This document shows, piece after piece, positions 8,435 to 11,832 of a stretch of 64,000 nucleotides of DNA. The DNA comes from Halostella pelagica (GTDB lineage: Archaea; Halobacteriota; Halobacteria; Halobacteriales; Natronoarchaeaceae), in NCBI GenBank assembly GCA_005954745.1, contig CP040678.1:1860001-1924000 (forward strand), given 5' to 3'. The stretch's first letter is position 1. Every line of letters begins with the position of its first letter. The notes beneath the pieces were generated by a model, which was not told the DNA's origin, ran no database searches, and saw only the letters and a list, made by a program, of their open reading frames with translations. The translations under genes were made by a program, and so were the position numbers.

Positions 8435-8743
8435 ATGTATCGGGCCCGTGATAGAGTCGATAACGAGGAGTGGATCGAAGTGCTCCACGCCGCGGCTGAC
8501 CGCCTCGACCTCGGATCCGAGGCGCGGTCGACGGCGACAGACCTCTTTCTCACGGCCATCCAGACCGAAGACGGGTCCAAACGAACGTCTCTCGCGGCGA
8601 GTCTCTACGCCGGATCGTTGATCGCAGGCGAGGAGCGGTCCCAGGGGGCAGTCGCGGATGCGGCCGACGTTTCGCGGCTGAGTATCCAGCAGCGGTGGAA
8701 AGACGTACTGGAAAACGCCGGACTCGAACCCCCGGGCTGGTAG
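8435..8743 (+). CDS. Single-repeat TFB/cyclin-box-like protein (102 aa)
   Basis: A 102-residue protein starting at ATG 8435. Residues about 50-92 (LAASLYAGSLIAGEERSQ, then VADAADVSRLSIQQRWKDVL) match the last helices of a TFB/TFIIB cyclin repeat: an Ala-rich helix ending in LIAGEERSQ, then a V-S-x-x-x-I-x-x-R-W-K recognition segment. The usual N-terminal zinc ribbon, B-finger and second cyclin repeat are absent. Full TFB proteins are about 320 residues, so this is either a stand-alone cyclin domain or a reduced paralogue. It starts 82 bases from the divergent tRNA-Leu. A role in transcription is inferred from the fold only. Confidence 0.6.
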   Translation: MYRARDRVDNEEWIEVLHAAADRLDLGSEARSTATDLFLTAIQTEDGSKRTSLAASLYAGSLIAGEERSQGAVADAADVSRLSIQQRWKDVLENAGLEPPGW

Positions 8744-11415: not shown

Positions 11416-11455
11416 TTTAAGTGCTTCTCGCGACAAGGGGTCATAGTAGAGGATT
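11416..11455 (+). repeat. Promoter-like direct repeat, copy 1
   Basis: The copy begins TTTAAGTGCTTCTCGCGA and continues with CAAGGGG, TCATAGTAGAGGATT. TTTAAG fits a haloarchaeal TATA box, and the conserved CATAGT lies about 27 bases downstream, where a transcription start would fall. Confidence 0.6.
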
Positions 11456-11487
11456 ATGCCTGAGCTCAATCCGGGGAGCGATGCGCT

Positions 11488-11504
11488 CGTCAGTCGCACT
11501 GACG
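11488..11504. terminator. 7-bp hairpin between promoter-like repeats
   Basis: CGTCAGT-CGC-ACTGACG forms a perfect 7-bp stem with a 3-base loop. A short T run (GTTTCTTT) follows on the + strand, immediately before repeat copy 2. It could terminate transcripts begun at copy 1. This is inferred from structure alone. Confidence 0.35.
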
Positions 11505-11511
11505 GCGTTTC

Positions 11512-11551
11512 TTTAAGTGCTTCTCGCGACAAGGGTTCGTAGTGAAGGATT
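11512..11551 (+). repeat. Promoter-like direct repeat, copy 2
   Basis: The first 18 bases (TTTAAGTGCTTCTCGCGA) are identical to copy 1, followed by CAAGGGT, TCGTAGTGAAGGATT. Copy 2 lies 96 bases downstream of copy 1 in the same orientation. Confidence 0.6.
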
Positions 11552-11638
11552 CTCGGGAGACTATCTGTCTTCGAGCGTAGCGTCTCTCGTCCGGAACCGC
11601 TGGCCGCGACTACGGATCTCACGTGAGGCCATTGACCC

Positions 11639-11678
11639 TTTAAGTGCTTCTCGCGATAAGGGTTCATTGTGAGGAAAT
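11639..11678 (+). repeat. Promoter-like direct repeat, copy 3
   Basis: It begins with the same 18 bases, then TAAGGGT, TCATTGTGAGG. It lies 127 bases downstream of copy 2 in the same orientation. The downstream third is more diverged than in copies 1 and 2. Confidence 0.6.
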
Positions 11679-11708
11679 GCGTCGGGTTCTGCGGTCCAGT
11701 TTTCTTCC

Positions 11709-11788: not shown

Positions 11789-11832
11789 GAAGCCATGCCT
11801 TTCTATACCCTCGGGAGCGTAAACCGCACGAG

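Follow-up and report, generated by a model that had tools for sequence, protein, structure and literature searches.

What are three promoter-like repeats doing in front of the gene for an RNA polymerase subunit whose own role is puzzling? The passages on epsilon in PMC8305020 describe it as an extra subunit of RNA polymerase, found in 1983 and needed for efficient transcription of native DNA, which co-purifies with the polymerase in Halobacterium (Madon and Zillig 1983, as cited there). RNA polymerase that contains epsilon transcribes native templates efficiently and the form without epsilon does not; the subunit occurs in Halobacterium salinarum and in some but not all other haloarchaea, and its biological relevance has been called enigmatic (PMC8305020). 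We found no report of a box, DNA element, promoter class or fold for epsilon in the open-access literature. In this study, we analyzed a stretch of 64,000 nucleotides from Halostella pelagica (hereafter the window), in which the epsilon gene, rpoeps, is preceded by three such repeats. We lean, if modestly, toward the reading that the repeats would be tandem copies of a dedicated promoter class that is read by epsilon and through which rpoeps is autoregulated.

Three tandem repeats precede rpoeps

The initial annotation of the locus described three copies of a ~40-bp sequence with an exact 18-base start, took them for tandem TATA-type promoter-like modules and noted that all are directed at a probable RNA polymerase epsilon gene. 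This description held up well. The three 40-bp copies lie on the plus strand where the annotation had placed them (Table 1) and have an exact 18-mer in common. They are spaced by 96 and 127 bp, and over the 40 bp the other two copies share 90% and 80% identity with copy 1. A dinucleotide shuffle predicts 0.01 chance matches with at most 3 mismatches in the whole window. The start site of copy 1 likely lies at about 11443-11447, and the downstream TTCT box of this copy is degenerate (TTAT). Random scatter of the motif, which the annotation had named as evidence against a promoter function, was not seen. The Halostella pelagica genome contains one further copy, with 2 mismatches, 109 kb away (C1:1980304). 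The hairpin reported between copies 1 and 2 is also present; we saw no recurrence of it, and as far as seen it is local to this genome.

The gene downstream is indeed rpoeps. Its product is 57-61% identical over 84-91% to four plasmid copies annotated as subunit epsilon (from Halorussus, Halococcus and Halocatena) and belongs to the same family as RpoEps of Halobacterium salinarum (OE_1279R); its distribution over a subset of haloarchaea agrees with PMC8305020. Of 19 rpoeps orthologues, 18 have an AT-rich box that spans -32 to -26 relative to the ATG, and the proximal TATA block is conserved in Halosimplex and in genomes of the same genus. Because the gene thus has a leaderless-type promoter of its own, the array of boxes is not the basic promoter of rpoeps.

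Table 1. Features of the rpoeps locus in the window (positions are those of the window)
Feature	Position	Strand	Basis or remark
Epsilon box copy 1	11416-11455	+	TATA-like TTTAAGT at 11416-11422; R1 E = 2.6e-10
Hairpin between copies 1 and 2 (CGTCAGT-CGC-ACTGACG)	11488-11504	+	Perfect 7-bp stem; sequence
Epsilon box copy 2	11512-11551	+	TATA-like TTTAAGT at 11512-11518; R1 E = 3.6e-12
TTCTnCGG-type box 3' of copy 2 (TTCTCGGG)	11550-11557	+	EM-derived second box
Epsilon box copy 3	11639-11678	+	TATA-like TTTAAGT at 11639-11645; R1 E = 1.4e-10
TTCTnCGG box 3' of copy 3 (TTCTGCGG)	11687-11694	+	EM-derived second box
Proximal TATA box of rpoeps (TTTCTATA)	11800-11807	+	33-26 bp before ATG; leaderless type
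rpoeps, RNA polymerase subunit epsilon, 249 aa	11833-12582	+	Annotated relatives; profile E = 2.6e-118 in own genome

The box has a promoter-like layout

We aligned 58 sites, taken from the rpoeps loci of 19 other haloarchaeal records and from 18-mer matches in related genomes. The epsilon box is about 40 bp long and consists of TTTAAGT, TTCTSGYNAYAAGG and a start-site-like block, followed 10-25 bp further on by TTCTnCGG. Among the 58 sites, TTTAAGT (positions 1-7) is essentially invariant, TTCTSGYNAYAAGG follows at fixed spacing (positions 10-23), and a third block is conserved at positions 28-38 from the start of TTTAAGT. This block looks like a start site with the first transcribed bases. 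The second conserved box, TTCTnCGG, emerged from EM on 146 sites, with a log-likelihood of 194 where shuffles reached about 20, and lies at positions 39-55 in most sites, and an AGCG-like word is also conserved downstream of the boxes. Conservation of the box is confined to short, promoter-spaced blocks. Archaeal promoters normally have a purine-rich upstream BRE. Immediately before the TATA of the boxes no such element was found in 60 sites: the bases at -3 to -1 are mostly T or C, and A at -3 and -2 occurs in none of the 60.

Upstream of rpoeps the boxes stand in tandem rows, with up to five in Halosimplex salinum, and 73 of the 78 boxes that adjoin the gene point in the sense direction. At five loci (L043, L061, L089, L048 and L011) there is also a box just 3' of rpoeps that is aimed against the 3' end of the gene, an arrangement that suggests antisense transcription or a bounded unit.

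The box occurs where the epsilon gene occurs

We searched one set of 194 genomes of the order both with the box model R1, which uses sequence only, and with an epsilon protein profile, and counted profile matches with E below 1e-80 as epsilon orthologues. Such an orthologue is encoded in 104 of the 194 genomes, and every one of these 104 genomes also has the box (540 sites). The 90 genomes without an orthologue yielded a single marginal box match (E = 0.0015), in a genome that holds an epsilon-like paralogue (G161). The pooled Fisher value for gene versus box is 1e-57. As this value ignores kinship, the mixed families, at least six (f1, f4, f6, f7, f12 and f14), and mixed genera (g16 and g39), in which gene and box switch together, are more telling. 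Nor does the co-occurrence merely follow from boxes adjoining the gene, because 58 sites in 27 carriers lie farther than 2.5 kb from rpoeps, next to 59 sites within this distance; the 32 non-carriers of the same sample had no site at E ≤ 0.01. In these distributions the box strictly follows the epsilon gene, which suggests that epsilon would be a specificity factor with its own promoters. With the box present alongside epsilon and absent without it, the enigmatic role of the subunit becomes a question for simple tests.

Boxes change and move with the gene

Within a genome, rpoeps-adjacent and distant sites agree with each other at 0.80 (positions 8-38), compared with 0.63 between families, and none of 500 label permutations reached the observed value. 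Joint drift of adjacent and distant sites is expected if one trans-acting factor reads all sites of a genome. In a genome of the same genus (G001), rpoeps and box are found on another contig, and the gshA-fibrillarin junction, which houses the gene and boxes in the window, has neither. Plasmid copies of rpoeps have different neighbours. The one of Halococcus dombrowskii is flanked by boxes on both sides, and the one of Halorussus vallis has one box, minus relative to the gene, which is aimed at the 5' region from the opposite strand or flank. No box was found near rpoeps at three loci, from Halapricum (L017), a Natrialbaceae MAG (L018) and a Halocatena plasmid (L203).

There is a second, more distant epsilon-like family with 22-35% identity. 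A variant box is present four times in the 12 genomes searched, once per genome and each time upstream of an epsilon-like paralogue. The box of a fifth paralogue (L180) is close to canonical, whereas for many further members of the epsilon-like group no box could be recognised. The pairing of paralogues with variant boxes is an independent hint of a shared reader. At the level of sequence, four things thus tie the box to epsilon: where the two occur, the subtypes that follow lineage, the move to new places and the pairing with paralogues.

Several members of the second family (L147-L149 and L180-L198) reside on small contigs or plasmids. An epsilon-like gene on the plasmid pSTJ003 of Halobacterium hubeiense (L202) is situated about 1 kb from a gene for a TATA-binding protein. 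At L149, L187 and L188 the variant box is followed by an inverted repeat, for example GGAACG-N6-CGTTCC, in the presumed first transcribed bases.

Co-occurrence alone cannot tell a reader from a companion. The main rival to our reading is that the box belongs to another regulator, or to a TFB paralogue, invariably co-inherited with rpoeps, in which case epsilon would be a target and not the reader. Haloarchaea carry many TFBs, with 22 TFIIB-repeat matches in the Halostella pelagica genome, but rpoeps has no constant neighbour across its contexts and it is epsilon's own paralogues that are accompanied by variant boxes; we consider a companion regulator rather unlikely. One candidate was rejected as reader of the box. 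A small single-repeat TFIIB-family protein of 102 aa is encoded 3 kb from rpoeps in the window (8435-8743, plus strand), and its gene is near rpoeps in G000, G002 and G004. Because the protein is present in all 194 genomes, its distribution is unlike that of the box.

A possible fold for epsilon

A pattern like one TFB cyclin repeat had been noted in the epsilon alignment prior to modelling. We obtained an AlphaFold model of the window epsilon, with a core confidence of 80-93, and a second model whose lead sequence is 46% identical to it; both were built on the same homologue set. The leading matches of both models were TFIIB, Brf2 and cyclins, with best Z scores of 11.1 and 9.1, where values of 8-11 are modest and values below about 13 are weak for helical proteins, and with Foldseek E values of about 0.3-0.6, which are non-significant. 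Profile-profile comparison of epsilon with haloarchaeal TFBs gave an hhalign probability of 0.3%, no better than shuffled columns, none of 25 epsilon members had a Pfam TFIIB match, and a sequence search of solved structures returned nothing meaningful. On the strength of the models, epsilon may have a TFB-like cyclin fold with a single repeat; we keep this fold as a lead only, because of the shared homologues, the weak Foldseek and Z values and the missing profile signal. The models match one cyclin repeat of TFIIB or Brf2. Epsilon differs from TFB/TFIIB in having one predicted repeat, with no zinc ribbon seen and no detectable sequence similarity. The first TFIIB repeat sits just downstream of TATA, and this is also the location at which the epsilon box is conserved.

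How epsilon could act at the box

If epsilon reads the box, TBP would bind TTTAAGT, and epsilon within RNA polymerase would recognise the block between TATA and start site, which would replace the upstream BRE. Epsilon would thereby act as a promoter-specificity factor. The array in front of rpoeps would be an autoregulatory element ahead of the gene's own leaderless promoter, and it could either feed transcription into rpoeps or, through interference, lower it. The distant boxes may yield short transcripts that lack structure, take part in local regulation or act by titrating epsilon.

A wider proposal, to which we give slightly less than even credence, is that epsilon is a sigma-like promoter-specificity factor with an autoregulated class of promoters to itself and a possible origin in a TFB repeat, and that its paralogues, some of them plasmid-borne, read variant boxes before their own genes. 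The functional analogy is with a bacterial alternative sigma factor, which likewise combines a specificity factor, an autoregulated gene, dedicated promoters and paralogues with variant promoters. The proteins are unrelated, however, and one would still expect TBP to be used in the archaeal epsilon system. Should epsilon be the reader of the boxes, archaea possess a dedicated specificity factor and promoter class in addition to their customary TBPs and TFBs.

Distant boxes and other readings of the repeats

We then considered where the boxes lie. Gene calls came from a simple script based on codon usage, and 151 of 153 sites fall outside these genes. For 43 of the 75 sites away from rpoeps the gene ahead runs in the same direction as the box, for the other 32 it is convergent, and the distant sites have no common target gene beyond small same-genus groups. 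Box positions turn over between genera and are kept within genera.

The next coding sequence is rarely less than 76 nt from a box and often about 100 nt away, even when the gene is convergent. This spacing, together with the TTCTnCGG box and AGCG-like word kept downstream, would suit boxes that serve as promoters for a small non-coding RNA family, with members of ~60-90 nt that work with the epsilon-containing RNA polymerase. We regard this as improbable. RNA structure downstream of the boxes showed no excess (mean fold z +0.2, 77 sites), there was no Rfam match in the window or at the sites and no tRNA at the sites, and the sequence 3' of the boxes, short words aside, is unconserved even between neighbouring species. 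The suggestion in the initial annotation that the repeats might be three small RNA genes is thus not borne out for structured RNAs, and we also rejected a structured non-coding RNA or known RNA family as the identity of the boxes. The sole Rfam match was a leuA-Halobacteria leader RNA (RF03001) at 2475-2527 of locus L004, which lies about 1 kb 3' of the fourth box of the Halostella pelagica genome.

The annotation had also proposed growth-rate promoters, a reading in which tandem basal promoters of the ordinary kind, like those of rRNA operons, would increase rpoeps expression at higher growth rates. One part of this stands, namely that tandem TATA modules face the gene and that nearly all adjoining boxes are in sense. 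As a simple explanation it is quite unlikely, though, given that rpoeps has its own leaderless TATA, that half of the sites in the 27 carriers are far from rpoeps, that the rRNA promoters of Halostella pelagica are without the motif and that a promoter of general use would not disappear from every genome lacking epsilon. There are no rRNA genes downstream of the repeats, as had been stated. In the proposed search at rRNA operons, the motif scored below zero at best in front of either 16S gene, and hence kinship with rRNA-type promoters is unsupported. Haloarchaeal tandem rRNA promoters resemble the epsilon boxes in being tandem arrays of several TATA modules at intervals of about 100 bp, and differ from them in sequence (TTTATG-type boxes). 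Upstream of the two 16S genes (L050 and L051), tandem TTTATG-type modules are followed by CTACAATGAAGTCCGAAGG, a different class.

An origin of the boxes as remnants of some dispersed mobile element is hardly credible: copies are dispersed, intergenic and turn over in position between genera, but in the aligned sites neither terminal repeats nor constant neighbours were noticed, only the promoter-spaced blocks are conserved, and the boxes have subtypes by lineage and keep their positions within genera. A viral or phage origin was rejected, with no epsilon relative in viral contigs or phages and one exact box match in viral contigs.

A regular arrangement of distant boxes is seen in genome G064. 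Here, five boxes (L116, L118, L119, L121 and L122) each stand in front of one of five related genes of ~139 aa, with 102-103 bp between the box and the nearer gene end; the genes are on the opposite strand, and the boxes are aimed at them.
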